From: Flavobacteriales bacterium BRH_c54
GTDB lineage: Bacteria > Bacteroidota > Bacteroidia > Flavobacteriales_E > Vicingaceae
Reading direction: 5' to 3'
Assembly (NCBI GenBank): GCA_000961845.1
Contig: LADZ01000021.1
Coordinates: forward strand, 1 to 64,000
Length of the DNA: 64,000 nt
Positions 25,287-35,467 of this stretch are shown piece after piece. The translations under genes and the position numbers were made by a program. The notes beneath the pieces are model-generated. The model did no database searches. It saw nothing but the letters and a program-made list of their open reading frames with translations, and had not been told where the DNA came from. The first letter of the stretch is position 1; each line of letters begins with the position of its first letter.

Positions 25287-25859
25287 TTATTCTGTAATAA
25301 TTTCTTCAAGTTCTTCTTGAGGCAATGGGATAACAACTTTTGAACATTTTTGATTAAATCCAATCACTGAATATGAAGGATTAGTTTTTGAATGAAACAG
25401 TTTTACACATTTTAAAACATCTTCCCATTCGTGTTTATCTAGTTCACTTTTTAAGATGAATAATTGAAAAATTGCTTCTCCTTTTTGATTATTTATTTCT
25501 TCTAAATAAGACTCAGCTATCGAGTCAAATTCTGAGTATAAATATTTTTCATTTTTATAAGAAAAGCTAGAAGTATCATTTATACAAATTGATAAAGCTC
25601 CTAAATCTCTATATACATTCTCTTGATTATTTATACTTCTTATTAGCCATGAATGAGTATTTTCAATTATTGAATCACTAATAACTATATAAGGAGAATT
25701 TTCGTTAGCTAATAAACCATTCAACTCTTGAAAATCAATTTGTTCATTACTTTTGAGTGCATTAAGTAATACAGAGGAAACACTCTTTTTTTCTTGATAA
25801 CAGCTTTCAAAAAATGAGATTATAATGAATAGAAATATTATTGTTGTTAAATTTCTCAC
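25287..25859 (-). CDS. Putative lipoprotein, last gene of the transglutaminase-like/RHS operon
   Basis: 190 residues with a hydrophobic leader ending in FESC (Cys20), a plausible lipoprotein site, so likely anchored in the envelope. The mature part is polar, mixed helix and strand, with no domain I recognise. It overlaps the membrane-protein gene upstream by 4 nt (ATGA), so the two are translationally coupled. The position after an RHS-core protein would suit an immunity or accessory factor; that is inference only. Confidence 0.78.
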   Translation of the reverse strand: MRNLTTIIFLFIIISFFESCYQEKKSVSSVLLNALKSNEQIDFQELNGLLANENSPYIVISDSIIENTHSWLIRSINNQENVYRDLGALSICINDTSSFSYKNEKYLYSEFDSIAESYLEEINNQKGEAIFQLFILKSELDKHEWEDVLKCVKLFHSKTNPSYSVIGFNQKCSKVVIPLPQEELEEIITE

Positions 25860-26251
25860 TTAGTTAGAGGAATGTACTTATAAAAGAAAACAAACAAAAA
25901 CAATAAACTTAATCCTAAATTATAAACTCCATTCATTAAATCAGATGGAGAAGCAGAATATGTATATAAAAAATATTCTGCTATTAAAAACAACCCTATT
26001 AATAGTAAAAAATAAGCACCTTTTACTTTAAATATAAAAAATAAAGGAATTGAAAAAATAAGAGATAAAATCACACTAAATATTAGAATGTATAATATAT
26101 AATAAAATATGTTAGACATGAAACCTTCTGTATTTACAGCATTATCAATTACTAAGGATTTAAACCTGCTACTAAAGAATGCCAGTATAGAAAAAAATAC
26201 TATATATTTTATTAAAAGACATAATGTAATATTAAGATAAGTAAGTTTCAT
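25856..26251 (-). CDS. Small four-helix membrane protein in the RHS operon
   Basis: 131 residues, strongly hydrophobic, with predicted helices near residues 9-27, 45-75, 78-97 and 105-126. No family is recognised. It overlaps both neighbours by 4 nt (26248-26251 and 25856-25859), so it is firmly part of the operon. Membrane partners next to polymorphic secreted proteins can be immunity proteins, but nothing in the sequence proves this. Confidence 0.75.
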   Translation of the reverse strand: MKLTYLNITLCLLIKYIVFFSILAFFSSRFKSLVIDNAVNTEGFMSNIFYYILYILIFSVILSLIFSIPLFFIFKVKGAYFLLLIGLFLIAEYFLYTYSASPSDLMNGVYNLGLSLLFLFVFFYKYIPLTK

Positions 26252-27273
26252 AATTTAATTTGAGTTCGTTCATAAAATGAAGGTTTAGGTCGTTTCCCTT
26301 TACTATGAGTTTTTACAAATGATGGCTGGTTATATTGAAAAATAAGTGCTCCATTCACTGACAACGTTGCTGAAGGAAATACATCTGTATATCCTTTTAC
26401 AGATAATTGATTATTTTTCAAACTAAAAGTTGCTTTCTGTGCTACATTTACAATATCGTAACCCATCAGACCTAACCCAAATTCTTCTGATGGTGATACA
26501 CTAGAGTGCTGCTCAAAATTAAGATTGTATGAATTTAATGTGCCATTTGTATTTTTACTTTGATTGAATGTAAACTTATTTTGGTCATCTCCTAAACCTG
26601 GAAAATAATCTCTTGGTGTACCAACAGGAGTAGTACCAACATCAACTTTTTTAAAAGCTCTAATGCCTGTTAACTCACCTTCACTATTTTCACTACCTAC
26701 AAGATAAATTGATGATGTAAGTTTATCTCCAGCAGGAAGTGTTCCCAAAGGACCATCCCACAAATCTTTATCTATGTAACTATTAAAATTAAAAGTTAAA
26801 GTTTTACCTAAATAAGTATCTCCTGATTTTGTTGTTTCTTGAGAATTTGCATCTTTATCCCATCGAATATCTCCATCACTATTTTGAACCCAATCAGGAG
26901 CTAAACCTGTTGGGTCTGTCATATTTATAGGATTATTCTCCACATAATTATAAGGCGACCAACTCGGAAATTCACTTGATAAAGGGTCTGGTGATAACCA
27001 ACGACTAATAACTTCAGGGCTAATATTGTATTCGTTACGAATGGTATCGTACTCTACAAATCCCATTATTTTCATGGTTACGGTATTGAATATTGCTCCT
27101 CCTATTTGTACTATGGTATCTTGGTCATAAAACTCAACGTATTTTCCTTTGCTTAAGGTGGCTATTTTAGGTTTATAACCAAATTCCTCAAAAGGGTTAA
27201 CCGGCTCGTTTTGTGCCTGTATGGTTGTTATTGCTATGCAAATAGCTAAAAATGATAAAACTGTTTTTTTCAT
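26248..27273 (-). CDS. Miniature secreted RHS-core protein (341 residues)
   Basis: Signal peptide at residues 1-20 (ends TTIQAQ). Residues 27-42 (FEEFGYKPKIATLSKG) and 52-90 form a segment I recall as the front part of many Bacteroidota RHS-associated proteins. The RHS core signature RWLSPDPLSSEFPSWSPYNY...NNPINMTDPTGL is at residues 91-124. The C-terminal ~215 residues are beta-rich and end KPSFYERTQ. There are no YD repeats, so the usual large RHS shell is missing. It sits 2 nt after the second transglutaminase-like gene and overlaps the membrane-protein gene by 4 nt. A toxin activity is possible but unproven. Confidence 0.85.
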   Translation of the reverse strand: MKKTVLSFLAICIAITTIQAQNEPVNPFEEFGYKPKIATLSKGKYVEFYDQDTIVQIGGAIFNTVTMKIMGFVEYDTIRNEYNISPEVISRWLSPDPLSSEFPSWSPYNYVENNPINMTDPTGLAPDWVQNSDGDIRWDKDANSQETTKSGDTYLGKTLTFNFNSYIDKDLWDGPLGTLPAGDKLTSSIYLVGSENSEGELTGIRAFKKVDVGTTPVGTPRDYFPGLGDDQNKFTFNQSKNTNGTLNSYNLNFEQHSSVSPSEEFGLGLMGYDIVNVAQKATFSLKNNQLSVKGYTDVFPSATLSVNGALIFQYNQPSFVKTHSKGKRPKPSFYERTQIKL

Positions 27274-27275
27274 CG

Positions 27276-28382
27276 TTAATGCGTATTAGTGGTAAAGTTA
27301 ATAATTTTTTTGTTTTGATATTTTTCTTTGTTTTCTTGTAAGGATACTAACCAGTCTATATACATTTGTTCAGGCATTTTGCGGTAGCCTAATTGGTGTA
27401 TTTTAGCGTAAGTTTGTTCCATGTCATTAAATAACTCTTGTGTGGCAGAGGAATAAATAAACAGTTCGGCTATGGTTTCTGCTCCTGCGGCTTTCATGCG
27501 TTGGGTAATTATTTTTCGTTGTGTTTCTGCTTTCATCAGCATTGCATTTACATAATTGGGATAATATTTTAATGCCGTTTCACAGGCTTTTAATATAAAT
27601 TGTCCGTCATTAATTCCTAATTTCTTTTCATAGCCTTGTGCCAAATCTAGCATACATAAAGCAATGGATTGTTGTTGTCCGAGCGTGTCCATAAATATAC
27701 CGTTTCGGATAGCATCCATGTGAATATAACCTGATGATTTTAACCAAGCATCTATCGGAAAAATGCCGCTTGTCAGCTCGGTATTGTACCAGCCACTTTG
27801 TTTGTTTTTTAATTTGATGTAAATGTGATTGGGTGCTAATGATAAATAAGCTTCTTCTCCGAGTTCTTCTGCCAGTATTTTATACAAATAGGGTAAGGAA
27901 TGGCAATTTCCTGTTTTGGTGTTGAGTAGTTTTATTACAAACATTTTGCTCCAGTCTTTTTGTCCAAAAAAATCTTCAAAATCATAGGTAAATGGTTCGT
28001 GTTTTACAACCTCATCACCAAACTGTATGGGTATCGTGTCAGTCAATGCCCAAAAGATGGCAGCATGTATTTTCACTTTTTCTTTATCTTCTTCATTATA
28101 TAATAAATCTCTTGATTGAATAATGGCTTTACAAAGTTGAGTATAGGTGTTTATTTGTTTGTTAAATAATTCATAATCTAGTTCATTGTCCCAATAGGTA
28201 TTTTCAACAGTAAATACAGCTTTTTTAAAACTTAAAGGTGTTGGTGATGTTGCTATTTGTACGAGTTCTTCTAGTGCAACTTCGTATCGTTGTTGAATGG
28301 CTTGTTTGTCTATTTCTGTCTGACTAAAAACAGTTAATGTAGAAAACAACAGGGCGATATGGATAAAAAGTATTTTCATCAA
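27276..28382 (-). CDS. Secreted transglutaminase-like protein, paralogue B (368 residues)
   Basis: Signal peptide (residues 1-20, ends LTVFSQ). The core aligns with the 503-residue product just upstream: KMFVIKLLNTKTGNCHSLPY in this protein and KMFVTKLLKTNSGQCHSLPL in the other. The G-x-C-H-S site (Cys160), the later PNHIYIK (His186) and the YNTELTSG strand (Glu202) resemble the Cys-His-Asp order of transglutaminase-like peptidases, with Glu in the third place. Helical repeats follow (210-350), possibly TPR-like. Its start codon overlaps the upstream stop by 4 nt. Enzyme class is inferred from the motif order only. Confidence 0.72.
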   Translation of the reverse strand: MMKILFIHIALLFSTLTVFSQTEIDKQAIQQRYEVALEELVQIATSPTPLSFKKAVFTVENTYWDNELDYELFNKQINTYTQLCKAIIQSRDLLYNEEDKEKVKIHAAIFWALTDTIPIQFGDEVVKHEPFTYDFEDFFGQKDWSKMFVIKLLNTKTGNCHSLPYLYKILAEELGEEAYLSLAPNHIYIKLKNKQSGWYNTELTSGIFPIDAWLKSSGYIHMDAIRNGIFMDTLGQQQSIALCMLDLAQGYEKKLGINDGQFILKACETALKYYPNYVNAMLMKAETQRKIITQRMKAAGAETIAELFIYSSATQELFNDMEQTYAKIHQLGYRKMPEQMYIDWLVSLQENKEKYQNKKIINFTTNTH

Positions 28383-29890
28383 TCTTTTTTTATCTTCATA
28401 ATGTTAAAGAGTTGTTCTTTTTCTTTCAGATGTTCTTGCCGATTCTTTTCTTCTCCAATGGATTTAAGCCATGCTTCGTATTGTTCGGCTGGTATAGGCT
28501 CGTACCCTGTATTATCTATCATATCATACATAGCATTTCTTTGTAAGTAAGTTTCGTAAACAATAGGATATTTTTCTTTTAATTGTTGAGGGGTTGGTTT
28601 TTCCTTATATCTAGTTTCTATTTCATAAAGGTATTGATTGAGTAATCCTGTGTAGTAATTGGATTTGAGTGCCATGCCGTGTATGCTATTAGGGAAATAC
28701 TCCATTGATTTATTGAGGGCTTCTATTACAAACCCATCGTTTCCGAACTTTATTCCGTAGCCTTGTGCTAAATCTTGTATCATGTAAGCAACGGTTTGTT
28801 GATTGCTTAGTGTGTCCATATAGATTCCACTTCTGATGGTTTCTGTTTTAATAAATCCTGATTCAAAGATTAAATCTTCGGTAATCAACATTCCATTGGT
28901 CAACTCTAAGTTATAAAATTTGTTTCCCTCTCTAAATTGAATATAGGTGTGTTTGGGCGAGAAGGAAATATAGGCTTCTGCTCCCAATCGTTGTGCCAAT
29001 GCTTTGTATAGTAGAGGTAAACTATGGCATTGCCCTGAATTGGTTTTGAGTAATTTGGTTACAAACATTTTTCGCCAGTCTTTGTACCCCATGTAATCGT
29101 CAAAATCATAAGTCATAGGAAAATGATTTTTACCGTTCAATTCTAGGCTGTCGGAAAAGAAGCGAAACAACATCATGTTTTTTGCTAAATTGCTTGTAGT
29201 GTCATAACCGTTATGAATCATGTATTGTTTACAAAACGCTACTATTTGATTAAGTGTCTTATCAAATTCTTCATAGCTTCCTTTGTTTTCATCGTAAGCG
29301 TTTTCTACTAAAAATGCAGCTTTTCCTATATTAATAGGAGATTTACCGTTTGCCATGTTTAGTAATTCATCATAAGCGGAGTAGTAGTTTTTGGTTTCTG
29401 GATAGATACTAGAAAAAGAAGGTATATTAAAATGAATCCGTTTATCTCTGGCTTTCATTTGGTCAAGTTCTACCATTATTTTTTCTATTTCTGATTGTTC
29501 TTTTTTAGCTCTTAAAGGGTCTTTGTAAAAATTGGTTTTGACATCATCAGGAGTAACAGGTTTGGAATACCCCATTGCCTGTTTAGAATTATTATTTTGC
29601 TGTTGGTATATTTTACTGGCAGGGTTGTTTTTAGGTTGGTAATTAGATGGTGTTGTGGGAGTATAACTTTGTGATGGACTTTTGGGTTGAAATGTTCCCG
29701 GCATAGGTGGTTTTGGAGTATTTATTTGTCCATAACCAACTGATGCAAGTGTTAATATTAATGTCATTATTAAAAATATCATTGTCGAGGATATAGTTTT
29801 TCTCAATTTAAAAGTATTAAATCCGCATTCCCAAGAAAGGAATATTTTATCTTTCGTATTAACGATATTATTTTGTCGATGAATGGTCAT
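28379..29890 (-). CDS. Secreted transglutaminase-like protein, paralogue A (503 residues)
   Basis: First gene of the five-gene operon. A hydrophobic segment at residues 37-53 ends SVGYGQ and looks like a signal peptide with a long charged lead; a start at Met37 (29782) is possible but would lose the positive charges. A Pro/Gln/Asn-rich linker (57-115) precedes a core with G-Q-C-H-S (Cys288), SPKHTYIQ (His314) and FYNLELTNG (Glu329), matching paralogue B. Helical repeats follow. The promoter box TATATTTG at 29901-29908 and the palindrome at 29932-29947 lie directly upstream. Peptidase or cross-linking activity is inferred. Confidence 0.72.
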   Translation of the reverse strand: MTIHRQNNIVNTKDKIFLSWECGFNTFKLRKTISSTMIFLIMTLILTLASVGYGQINTPKPPMPGTFQPKSPSQSYTPTTPSNYQPKNNPASKIYQQQNNNSKQAMGYSKPVTPDDVKTNFYKDPLRAKKEQSEIEKIMVELDQMKARDKRIHFNIPSFSSIYPETKNYYSAYDELLNMANGKSPINIGKAAFLVENAYDENKGSYEEFDKTLNQIVAFCKQYMIHNGYDTTSNLAKNMMLFRFFSDSLELNGKNHFPMTYDFDDYMGYKDWRKMFVTKLLKTNSGQCHSLPLLYKALAQRLGAEAYISFSPKHTYIQFREGNKFYNLELTNGMLITEDLIFESGFIKTETIRSGIYMDTLSNQQTVAYMIQDLAQGYGIKFGNDGFVIEALNKSMEYFPNSIHGMALKSNYYTGLLNQYLYEIETRYKEKPTPQQLKEKYPIVYETYLQRNAMYDMIDNTGYEPIPAEQYEAWLKSIGEEKNRQEHLKEKEQLFNIMKIKKD

Positions 29891-29931: not shown

Positions 29932-29947
29932 TAAGTAAAAATACTTA
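29932..29947. promoter_or_regulatory. Palindrome TAAGTA-AAAA-TACTTA, candidate operator
   Basis: Perfect six-base arms with a four-base spacer, 24 nt upstream of the operon's -7 box and overlapping the last codons of the receiver gene. The same palindrome recurs four more times up to 35540. Confidence 0.6.
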
Positions 29948-30316
29948 CATAAATGAAAAACAATTGTTTATTTCTTTAATAAGAATATTACTGTTAGCCT
30001 CATATTTGGATAAAAATCCAACAGCTCCATTTTTTAAAAAAGCTTCTTTGGTTGTTAAATCATCATTACACGAAAAACCAATTACTTTTATCTCAGGAAA
30101 TAAGTCTTTTACTAGTTTGGTAGTTTCAATGCCGTTAAGTAATGGCATACGGTAATCCATTAAAATAACATCAGGTTTTAGATCTTGTAAAAAAGAAATG
30201 ACTTCCGAACCGTCCTTACATTCTCCAATAACTTGAATTTTGGATTTTTTACTGAGAGTGGTTTTGATAGCTTTTCTAACAATCGCATTATCATCAACCA
30301 ATAATACTTTAATCAT
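29945..30316 (-). CDS. Stand-alone response regulator receiver domain
   Basis: 123-residue CheY-like receiver with no output domain. The acidic pocket Asp8-Asp9, phosphoacceptor Asp54 (ILMDYRMP) and conserved Lys104 (GFLSK) are present, so phosphorylation should work. Sequence style (NGIETTKLV, KNGAVGFLSK) is that of NarL/LuxR-type receivers whose helix-turn-helix is missing here; translation stops cleanly after the last helix. It lies upstream of the five-gene operon on the same strand and could signal to it or act through protein contacts. No cognate kinase is adjacent. Confidence 0.9.
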   Translation of the reverse strand: MIKVLLVDDNAIVRKAIKTTLSKKSKIQVIGECKDGSEVISFLQDLKPDVILMDYRMPLLNGIETTKLVKDLFPEIKVIGFSCNDDLTTKEAFLKNGAVGFLSKYEANSNILIKEINNCFSFM

Positions 30317-32494: not shown

Positions 32495-32502
32495 TATTTT
32501 TG
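32495..32502 (+). promoter_or_regulatory. -7 promoter element of the LamG T9SS gene
   Basis: TATTTTTG (TAnnTTTG), 45 nt before the ATG at 32548. A TAAGTA half-site lies at 32485-32490 and a palindrome at 32508-32523. Confidence 0.5.
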
Positions 32503-32507
32503 TCGAT

Positions 32508-32523
32508 TAAGTGTTTTTACTTA
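32508..32523. promoter_or_regulatory. Palindrome TAAGTG-TTTT-TACTTA, candidate operator
   Basis: One mismatch from the perfect arms; lies just downstream of the predicted transcription start of the LamG gene, in its leader. Confidence 0.55.
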
Positions 32524-32547
32524 CTTTTATCTTCTAAAAAAAATTTC

Positions 32548-34338
32548 ATGAAAGCTGTACTAGTTATATTAACACTATTTTTTTCTCTGAACACCTATTC
32601 ACAAGGTGCCGGATATGCTTTAAATTTTGATGGTATAAATGATAATGTTCAAGGGCATGCCGCTGACTTAACAGCAATAACAAACAACTTTACTATTGAA
32701 TTTTGGTTTAATGCTTCAGCAACTATAGCCTTAAGGGCTGAACAAAATGGTGTAAATCATATTTCCGGAACAACCGGTAATGGTCAACGATATGCTGTTT
32801 ACCCACAGCACGGAGGAGGAAGTAATGGAACTTGGGGAAATGCTGGAGCAGGCGTCTCTGTCGGTTCAAATGCTATTCAGGTTTATGAACATAAAGCTTC
32901 GTATATGCCTTGTTTACTAAGTTATAGTGGGCCTCTTATTCAAGCAGGTTGGAATCATGTTGCAATTGTTTATATTAACAAAAGACCTCGTCTTTATTTA
33001 AATGGAATTAATGTAAAAGATGGTTTAACTTCTAATCAAAACAATGTTTTTCCTTCCGGATTATTAGGTGGATCTCCTTATGGTTGGTATTCGGGTGATC
33101 TTGATGAATTTAGAGTTTGGAGTACCTCACGAACACAAGGAGAAATTAGAACTAATATGTGTAGAAAATTAATTGGAAATGAAACTGGGTTAGTAAGATA
33201 TTACCGATTAGATGATGGAACTGGAGGAACAACAATAGATGCTACAGGAAATGTAAATGGATCTTTAATAAGTATGACCCCTGCTACTGACTGGATAGCT
33301 TCTGGTGCTGCATTAGGTAACAGTAGTTCTGTTAGTTACAACACTGCTACAGGATTACCTTTTGCTACATCTATCAACCTTATTAACCCTAGTGGACAAG
33401 ATGAATTAACTATATCAGATATTACAGGAACACCATCAGGAGTTCATATCTATGGAGAAAATAATGCTCCAAACGTTACTTGTGGTGCACTTGGTGTAGG
33501 TGGTAACGATAGATATTTCGGTGTTTTTGTTGTAAATGGCACCACATCTATTGGGACACCAACTTATAATGCAACCTATAATTATACTAATAATCCATAC
33601 ATTAATGCTATTAATGAACCTAACTTAGATTTTGCCAATAGAACAACAAATGCTGTGATAACATGTAATGCATGGAATAATTTATCTGCTACCCTTAATA
33701 TGATTACTGATATTCTTGTTCGGAACAACCTTTCTGGCAGAAATGAATTTATCCTTACTTCAGAAACAACTCCTTTACCTATTGATTTAACTTATTTTAA
33801 TGCTTTAATAATTGAAAACACTGTTCAACTAACATGGATTACAGCATCAGAAATTAATAATGATTACTTTACTATTGAGAGAAGTACTGATACTCAATAT
33901 TGGGAAAAAATTCTAACCGTTAATGGAGCAGGTAATAGCAATCAAATAATTGAATATACAGAAACCGATTTTAATCCTTTAAATGGTACATCTTATTACC
34001 GATTAAAACAAACAGATTTTGATGGTAGGTTTGAATATTTTAATATTGTTCCTGTAAACTATAGTACTTCCATTGAAAAAGATGAACTAAGTATATTTCC
34101 AAACCCTATAAACTCAGGTGGAACTATCTCTATCAATCATAATTTTAACTCAACCGATGAAATCCTAGTAGTACTTAGAGATTTACAAGGAAAAGAATTC
34201 TATTCTAAAATTCATATCAATATCAATAAAGATAAATTAATAGGTATTCCGATTAACTATGAAATACCTAAAGGAATTTATTTTATTGTGGCTACTTCTG
34301 AAAATAAAACTCATAGCAAAAAATTGATTATTGAGTAA
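32548..34338 (+). CDS. LamG-domain T9SS surface protein (596 residues)
   Basis: The ATG at 32548 gives a clean signal peptide (MKAVLVILTLFFSLNTYSQ); the frame is open from a TTG at 32500 that overlaps the promoter. Residues ~20-230 form a LamG/concanavalin-like domain (LNFDGINDNVQG, FTIEFWFNA, GWNHVAIVYINKRPRLYLNG, YSGDLDEFRVWS). A second beta region follows, then a shared stalk (PLPIDLTYF...SYYRLKQTDFDG) and a type A T9SS sorting domain (LSIFPNPINSGGTI...KGIYFIVATSENKTHSKKLI). Probably binds carbohydrate or matrix at the surface. Its 3' third is duplicated in the next gene. Confidence 0.9.
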   Translation: MKAVLVILTLFFSLNTYSQGAGYALNFDGINDNVQGHAADLTAITNNFTIEFWFNASATIALRAEQNGVNHISGTTGNGQRYAVYPQHGGGSNGTWGNAGAGVSVGSNAIQVYEHKASYMPCLLSYSGPLIQAGWNHVAIVYINKRPRLYLNGINVKDGLTSNQNNVFPSGLLGGSPYGWYSGDLDEFRVWSTSRTQGEIRTNMCRKLIGNETGLVRYYRLDDGTGGTTIDATGNVNGSLISMTPATDWIASGAALGNSSSVSYNTATGLPFATSINLINPSGQDELTISDITGTPSGVHIYGENNAPNVTCGALGVGGNDRYFGVFVVNGTTSIGTPTYNATYNYTNNPYINAINEPNLDFANRTTNAVITCNAWNNLSATLNMITDILVRNNLSGRNEFILTSETTPLPIDLTYFNALIIENTVQLTWITASEINNDYFTIERSTDTQYWEKILTVNGAGNSNQIIEYTETDFNPLNGTSYYRLKQTDFDGRFEYFNIVPVNYSTSIEKDELSIFPNPINSGGTISINHNFNSTDEILVVLRDLQGKEFYSKIHININKDKLIGIPINYEIPKGIYFIVATSENKTHSKKLIIE

Positions 34339-34442: not shown

Positions 34443-34462
34443 ATATTTGAACTTTTTTATTG

Positions 34463-35467
34463 ATGATGAATATCAAACACCTAACTATACTACTGCTTTT
34501 TATTCAAGTTCAAGTATTTGCAGCTTGTGTAAGTGTTGGTTCTGGAGATTGGGATGATCCTAATACATGGATTTGTAATGGTGTTCCCGGAGTACCTGGT
34601 TGTGGAGATACCATTACCATTGCTTCAGGACATACTGTTACTATTAGAAATCAACAAAATTATTCAGAACCAGGATGTAGCACACCGATTTTTATAGTAG
34701 TTAATGGTACCTTAGATTTCCCTGTAAATGGCCCTAAACTTCAACTTCCATGTAACTCTGGCTTTATTATTAATAGCGGGGGTTCTTTAACTGCATCAGC
34801 TCCTGCTGGTGGTGGAAGTGCTAATTTTCTTGAAATTTGCGGTACTGTTTATTGGAGAAAAGCTGACGGAACAATAACTGGTCCGATAAACTATGGAGCT
34901 CCTCTCCCTATTGAATTAGTTTATTTTGATGCTTTAACCATTGAAAATACTGTTCAGTTAACATGGATTACAGCATCAGAAATTAATAACGATTATTTTA
35001 CTATTGAAAAAAGTGTTGATGCTAAAGTATGGGAAACGGTGCTAATAATAAATGGAGCAGGTAATAGCAATCAAATAATTGAATATACAGAAACCGATTT
35101 TAATCCTTTAAATGGTACATCTTATTACCGATTAAAACAAACTGATTTTGATGGAAGATTTGAATATTTTAATATCGTTCCTGTAAAGTATAGTAATTCT
35201 GATGATGAAGATGAGTTAAGTATTTTTCCTAACCCTGTTCATCAGGGCGAAAACATTTCTGTAAGTCATTCATTTAATTCAACTGATGAAATTCTAGTGG
35301 TATTAAGAGACTTACAAGGAAAAGAATTTTACTCTAAAGTTCATATCAACATTAATGAAGATGAATTAATTGGTATTCCTATTGATTATATAATTCCGAA
35401 AGGAATTTATTTTATTGTAGCTACTTCCGAAAATAAAATTCACAGCAAAAAATTGATTATTAAGTAA
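34463..35467 (+). CDS. T9SS type A surface protein, paralogue 2 (334 residues)
   Basis: Signal peptide (residues 1-21, ends VFAA). The N-terminal ~130 residues read SVGSGDWDDPNTW...CGDTITIASGHTVTI, the pattern of short beta-strand surface domains in which SG-W-TW is followed by a D-T-I-x-I-x-x-G-H-x-V turn; likely a beta-helix or sandwich. The C-terminal ~190 residues are nearly the same as in the LamG protein (stalk and sorting domain). Start is ATG at 34463 or 34466. A duplication with exchange of the N-terminal domain explains it. Ligand unknown. Confidence 0.87.
   Translation: MMNIKHLTILLLFIQVQVFAACVSVGSGDWDDPNTWICNGVPGVPGCGDTITIASGHTVTIRNQQNYSEPGCSTPIFIVVNGTLDFPVNGPKLQLPCNSGFIINSGGSLTASAPAGGGSANFLEICGTVYWRKADGTITGPINYGAPLPIELVYFDALTIENTVQLTWITASEINNDYFTIEKSVDAKVWETVLIINGAGNSNQIIEYTETDFNPLNGTSYYRLKQTDFDGRFEYFNIVPVKYSNSDDEDELSIFPNPVHQGENISVSHSFNSTDEILVVLRDLQGKEFYSKVHININEDELIGIPIDYIIPKGIYFIVATSENKIHSKKLIIK

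Follow-up and report, generated by a model that had tools for sequence, protein, structure and literature searches.

What function could unite the five consecutive genes of Flavobacteriales bacterium BRH_c54 that encode two exported transglutaminase-like (TG) proteins, a short secreted RHS protein, a membrane protein and a lipoprotein? The genes lie in the first 64,000 nucleotides of contig LADZ01000021.1, which were analysed as a whole and are called the window here, and their five open reading frames (ORFs) are all located on the minus strand, spanning 29890 to 25287. An earlier note on this DNA had proposed surface display and processing of a polymorphic tip, with the last two genes as receptors or immunity genes. 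The results presented below make it likely that the operon encodes a polymorphic toxin, its immunity protein and, as dedicated partners, two secreted cysteine enzymes. The interpretation of the earlier note is thus upheld in part: the transglutaminase-like core, the RHS toxin and the immunity role of gene 4 stood, and the roles given to gene 5 and to receptors did not.

Recurrence of the gene set and the polymorphic miniRHS protein

A search of the same genome with gene 1, which encodes the first TG protein (TG1), revealed a second tandem TG pair on another contig. In this second copy, the second TG protein (TG2) and the RHS core are fused into one ORF of 682 amino acids, which carries an HExxH-like HEGFH motif in its C-terminal part and is followed by a lipoprotein gene. 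The presence of both in a single ORF indicates that TG2 and the RHS protein belong together. Homologues of the TG proteins (E below 1e-5) were found in 8 of the 46 genomes of the family and, in an even sample of the class, TG2 was present in 26 of 395 genomes, corresponding to 25 of 196 genera. Scanning one genome per species (84,980 species) yielded at least 79 loci, whose hosts include Flavobacterium, Aquimarina, Tenacibaculum, Dysgonomonas, Balneola, Cytophagales and termite-gut Bacteroidales. The common gene orders are TG1-TG2-RHS, TG1 followed by a fused TG2-RHS, and TG1-TG2-RHS followed by more RHS cassettes (a few loci were counted twice in this survey, the searches overlapping). TG2 was adjacent or fused to an RHS toxin in most loci, with fusion in several genera, and in some loci one TG pair serves several toxin cassettes. 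Because there is a second genomic copy and the order recurs across the phylum, the gene set lies far beyond chance and, judged from sequence, the operon is one instance of a widespread Bacteroidota module of the form TG1-TG2-miniRHS-immunity. Neither a lack of co-occurrence in other genomes, nor a missing transglutaminase-like core, nor a missing link to the RHS protein, the three points at which the note had considered its interpretation vulnerable, was found.

Gene 3 (26248..27273, minus strand) encodes the miniRHS protein of 341 amino acids, composed of a signal peptide, a constant N-domain, a truncated RHS core and a variable C-terminus. The RHS-associated core is recognised by TIGR03696 at 36.5 bits (cut-off 32.5, E 5e-9), aligned to model positions 42-76 of 76 and thus to its C-terminal half, and no match to RHS-repeat (YD shell) families was found in the protein, which was correctly described on first reading as a secreted RHS core without a YD shell. 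The constant N-domain (TLSxGKYxE) and the RHS-core end up to the DPTG motif occupy 26905..27210 (minus strand, residues about 22-123). They are followed by an exchangeable C-terminal domain (26248..26904, minus strand), a putative toxin of unnamed family that is predicted to be beta-rich. Among miniRHS proteins, 79 of 89 have a signal peptide according to a simple rule of our own. The N-domain (66 positions), searched for alone, was detected in 20 of the 395 class genomes, each of which also belongs to the 26 that have TG2.

The comparison of 92 complete RHS cassettes showed how differently the two parts of the carrier behave. Of 4186 pairs, 4133 had homologous constant regions, whereas homologous C-termini were seen in no more than 97. 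The pairs were treated as units, here and in the counts of next genes, although the sequences are related, so that a Fisher p-value for the next genes is not to be taken at face value. The C-termini of these cassettes form 48 clusters, and in 17 pairs of tandem cassettes within one locus the cores were 56-93% identical and none of the C-termini were homologous (0/17). C-termini on relatives match Ntox17, Ntox21, Ntox33, Ntox44, Tox-REase-7 and Toxin-JAB1, and further matches were obtained to Tox-MPTase3, Peptidase_M91, TseH, Tle3 and a cell-wall hydrolase. Moreover, among the 95 pairs whose C-termini are homologous, 20 also had homologous next genes, compared with 7 of the 3999 pairs whose C-termini are not. 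Gene 3 is, in its composition, a polymorphic toxin made of a constant carrier and a hypervariable C-terminus whose toxicity is predicted, and the polymorphic tip anticipated by the earlier note is therefore real. One C-terminal domain occurs both on a stand-alone miniRHS protein (locus L029, 4263-5321) and on a fused TG2-RHS protein (locus L030, 4253-6403); cassettes thus seem to be passed between the stand-alone and the fused form.

The C-terminus encoded in the window has no Pfam or NCBIfam match. The structure model of the miniRHS protein is of low confidence (pLDDT, the predicted local distance difference test score, 58.7) and a fold search with it returned chance matches, none with E below 0.001; because of the poor model and the chance-level matches the toxin domain is given no fold assignment. 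Homologues of this C-terminus are present on other carriers (L051, L143, L144 and L145, of which the last three come from three further genomes of the class). It recurs in Aquimarina algiphila (62%), followed by a homologue of gene 4 (42%, E 6e-16). A further cassette of that A. algiphila locus is just as similar in its core (60%), but its C-terminus is unrelated, and so is the gene after it. In L143, the C-terminus (66%) ends a fuller RHS-core protein, and in L144 and L145 it is followed by small membrane proteins that, judged by eye, resemble gene 4. Because the window C-terminus recurs across genera, usually beside a membrane protein like that of gene 4, the multi-pass membrane protein encoded by gene 4 (25856..26251, minus strand) is, by linkage, the probable cognate immunity protein. 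Genes 3 and 4 very probably form a toxin-immunity pair, with both toxicity and neutralisation being predicted.

The assignment is different for gene 5 (25287..25859, minus strand), a predicted lipoprotein with the lipobox FESC. Like gene 4, it has no match to a known family. No credible relative was found in the 395 class genomes or in the module loci compared. Weak matches to AbiJ_NTD4, LuxT_C and OlefBLtnSynShew were below the cut-off and were rejected, and of three weak matches in genomes, all taken as chance, two fall within helicase-like proteins and the third within a region interrupted by stop codons. The product of gene 5 looks like an orphan lipoprotein, and the gene is perhaps an immunity gene that stayed behind when an earlier cassette was lost. 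Of the immunity function that had been suggested for the last two genes, the part concerning gene 4 is sustained by the linkage to the C-terminus and the part concerning gene 5, which has no conserved link to the system, is not; for receptor roles no evidence was obtained in either gene.

The transglutaminase-like pair and its predicted fold

TG1 (28379..29890, minus strand; an ORF of 503 amino acids) is an exported protein with a Pro/Gln-rich N-terminal linker and a transglutaminase-like domain, and TG2 (27276..28382, minus strand; an ORF of 368 amino acids) is exported, has a predicted menin-like fold and carries the triad Cys160-His186-Glu202. The G-x-C-H-S, P-x-H-x-Y-I and E-L-T core that had been noticed in both front proteins is present, as GQCHS or GNCHS, PKHTYI or PNHIYI, and ELT (GQCHS, PKHTYI and ELT in TG1). 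Both proteins match Transglut_core2 weakly, TG1 reaching 21.7 bits, slightly below the cut-off of 23.5, and matches to PF13369 were also weak (22 of 37 members, best 2.5e-6). Searches of PDB sequences with TG1 and with a TG profile gave nothing useful.

Across 199 TG domains of both paralogues, Cys is present in 199, His in 199 and Glu in 198, with Asp in the remaining one, and the Cys figure is in part produced by construction, because the TG2 loci of the cross-species scan had been picked with a pattern that includes the Cys. The same triad conservation was observed in TG1 and 44 profile-found sequences of the class sample chosen without the Cys pattern, and the triad is also kept in 89 relatives of TG1. 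TG1 and TG2 carry a Cys-His-Asp/Glu triad in a transglutaminase-like core, and enzymatic activity is predicted for them. The conserved triad and the TG-like folds among the structural matches of TG2 substantiate the Cys-His-Glu core proposed in the earlier note. As a separate observation, in L026 (1-1470; G010, a closely related genome of the same genus) the TG1 gene is broken by stops or frameshifts at a contig end, by decay or through an assembly error.

The structure model of TG2 was obtained with high confidence (pLDDT 92.5, predicted template modelling score 0.90). With this model, the best Foldseek matches were all menin, the top one with a probability of 1.00 and E 5e-4. Alignment with human menin by VIA-align gave Z 17.0 over 256 residues (root-mean-square deviation 4.0; model residues 31-343), compared with Z 9.4 for the next unrelated chain. 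Menin, a tumour suppressor in humans, is divided into an N-domain, a transglutaminase-like thumb and a TPR palm. The TG2 model agrees with it in order and extent, with a helical N-domain, a TG domain and TPR. A menin-like fold of TG2 is thereby supported at the level of prediction, a specific form of the transglutaminase-like core that the earlier note had not foreseen.

At the level of sequence no such agreement was found. Neither the TG proteins nor the TG loci matched the menin family PF05053; the matches to it within the class lie mostly at model positions 480-632 and are all below the cut-off. Alignment of the TG proteins with human menin by hhalign, for which a menin sequence identical to the PDB chains was used, was no better than with shuffled sequences. 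Because the sequence tests failed and the fold match is a prediction, kinship of TG2 with menin is only possible. A bolder proposal, that TG1 and TG2 are bacterial, exported and catalytically intact relatives of menin, in which a menin-like cleft would hold the toxin by its N-domain for processing at the Cys-His-Glu site, must be considered doubtful. If it were true, a chromatin regulator of animals and the processing partner of a bacterial toxin system would share descent, in parallel to the teneurins, for which an origin from RHS toxins is assumed.

A possible mechanism and the genomic surroundings

In the mechanism proposed, TG1, TG2 and the miniRHS protein would cross the inner membrane by their signal peptides, and TG2, in cis where it is fused and in trans where it is separate, would engage the constant N-domain of the toxin. 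Helped by TG1, it might then use Cys160-His186-Glu202 to cleave, ligate or surface-anchor the toxin, and the TG pair would in this way substitute for the large RHS shell that the miniRHS toxin lacks. The C-terminus would be toxic and gene 4 would neutralise it. Because its probable immunity protein is a membrane protein, the toxin of the window is likely to work on or within the envelope of competing cells. With respect to export, a T9SS (type IX secretion system) is probable in the organism because an unrelated Laminin_G_3 protein of the window (32500-34338, plus strand) carries a Por_Secre_tail; no such tail is present on the five operon proteins. Some observations weigh against a toxin-immunity locus with a dedicated enzyme pair: some loci (L029) have only one TG protein, the window C-terminus matches no named toxin family and has a poor model, and in L143 this C-terminus is followed by a different membrane protein.

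That the TG proteins act on the toxin enzymatically is slightly favoured. They could instead act as binding scaffolds, as might be expected from a predicted fold that is nearest to menin, itself a scaffold, and from the anchoring role proposed for TG domains in such a position (Zhang et al., 2012; PMC3482391). This is rather unlikely, given that a triad superfluous for a pure scaffold is kept in practically all of the 199 sequences, in both paralogues and phylum-wide. The miniRHS protein has also to be considered as a teneurin-like signalling or adhesion protein for kin recognition, with the variable end as a tag and gene 4 as its receptor. Variability and a linked membrane protein would fit a recognition system too, and the window C-terminus has no known toxin motif. 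However, the same carrier bears many C-termini of established toxin families, among them nucleases, metallopeptidases, lipases and a cell-wall hydrolase, and where the C-termini change the linked genes change too, which makes kin recognition very improbable.

Marginally less credible still is the possibility that TG1 and TG2 are themselves the effectors, as toxic transglutaminases or peptidases, and the RHS protein a separate neighbouring toxin. Transglutaminase and papain-like toxin domains do exist (Tox-TGase, PMC3482391) and the TG proteins are exported with an intact triad, but they are the constant and not the variable part of the module, in fusions they precede both the RHS core and a further toxin domain, a single TG pair can accompany several cassettes, and the N-domain is found only where TG2 occurs. 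Finally, gene 3 might be what decay has left of a normal RHS toxin, in an operon without joint function, as the missing YD shell and the truncated RHS pieces of other genomes (L144, L145) might suggest. This is hardly conceivable, since it is contradicted by the conservation of the same short design, N-domain included and mostly with a signal peptide, in some 90 cassettes throughout the phylum, always in genomes with TG2.

The positions of the five ORFs, their overlaps and the 2-nucleotide gap are as first described, and only the likely starts of genes 1 and 2 needed refinement. For TG2, the ATG at 28379 (TGATG, an overlap of 1 nucleotide) is more likely than the TTG at 28382; for TG1, the ATG at 29782, which immediately precedes the signal peptide, is a possible alternative to the start at 29890. 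Upstream of TG1, at a distance of 54 nucleotides, lies a gene for a stand-alone receiver-domain response regulator (29945..30316, minus strand; PF00072, E 6e-24). A receiver-domain gene is also found directly upstream of TG1 in other species, in L026 (1523-1900) and L030 (2150-2527), with identities to that of the window of 74% and 59%, respectively. This gene may be a regulator of the operon or the first gene of its transcript. Between it and the TG1 signal peptide, 65 bases (29810-29874, minus strand) are 85% identical to positions 2519-2583 of L030, which belongs to another genus, and are better conserved than the receiver gene itself (69%). The core of this stretch occurs once in the genome, and it reads as an N-terminal extension of TG1 (FLSWExGFNTF) or a conserved leader. 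Elsewhere in the window, a tRNA called by ARAGORN at 34766-34838, without a proper anticodon and within the ORF 34460-35467, is probably false. PADLOC models of anti-phage defence gave no matches among the five operon proteins.

Comparison with known systems

Polymorphic toxins, RHS proteins and TG domains on RHS toxins are already known. No account of the TG1-TG2-miniRHS module was encountered in the open-licence literature searched, in accordance with the earlier note, and the combination of a shell-less RHS toxin with a pair of intact-triad, menin-fold enzymes is apparently undescribed. With two probably active proteins of papain/transglutaminase fold, their activity being predicted, and a shell-less RHS toxin as its constant parts, the module is a simple setting in which to test how an RHS-type toxin is managed when its shell is missing, and it points to many unassigned families of toxins and immunity proteins. 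A prokaryotic candidate with menin-like architecture also makes the origin of menin testable: menin has been called solely eukaryotic and its human form is without the catalytic Cys (PMC10318531), whereas TG2 is exported and shorter.

The closest parallel is provided by the RHS toxins analysed by Zhang et al. (2012), which resemble the module in having a TG-fold domain that follows the signal peptide, RHS elements, a C-terminal toxin that varies and an immunity gene downstream of it. The TG domains described there are inactive, have lost triad residues and precede RHS-repeat arrays (PMC3482391). The present family is set apart from them because its triad is intact (C, H and E/D in 199 of 199 domains). 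Further, the module has two TG proteins, usually encoded by separate genes, and keeps only the RHS-core end, separate or fused, with no RHS-repeat array. Canonical RHS toxins have in common with it the RHS-associated core end with DP...DPxG before a variable C-terminus, and C-termini have been exchanged between the module and fuller RHS-core proteins (L143); in contrast to them, the miniRHS protein is without the YD-repeat shell and the TG partners are obligate. The TANFOR toxins of Bacteroidetes are large proteins with a TANFOR domain that have been proposed as T9SS substrates (PMC7073777). They resemble the module in their occurrence in Bacteroidota, the Sec signal, the variable C-terminal toxins, the immunity genes and an export route that is unproven, and they differ from it in its foundation, which in the module is a TG pair together with an RHS core.

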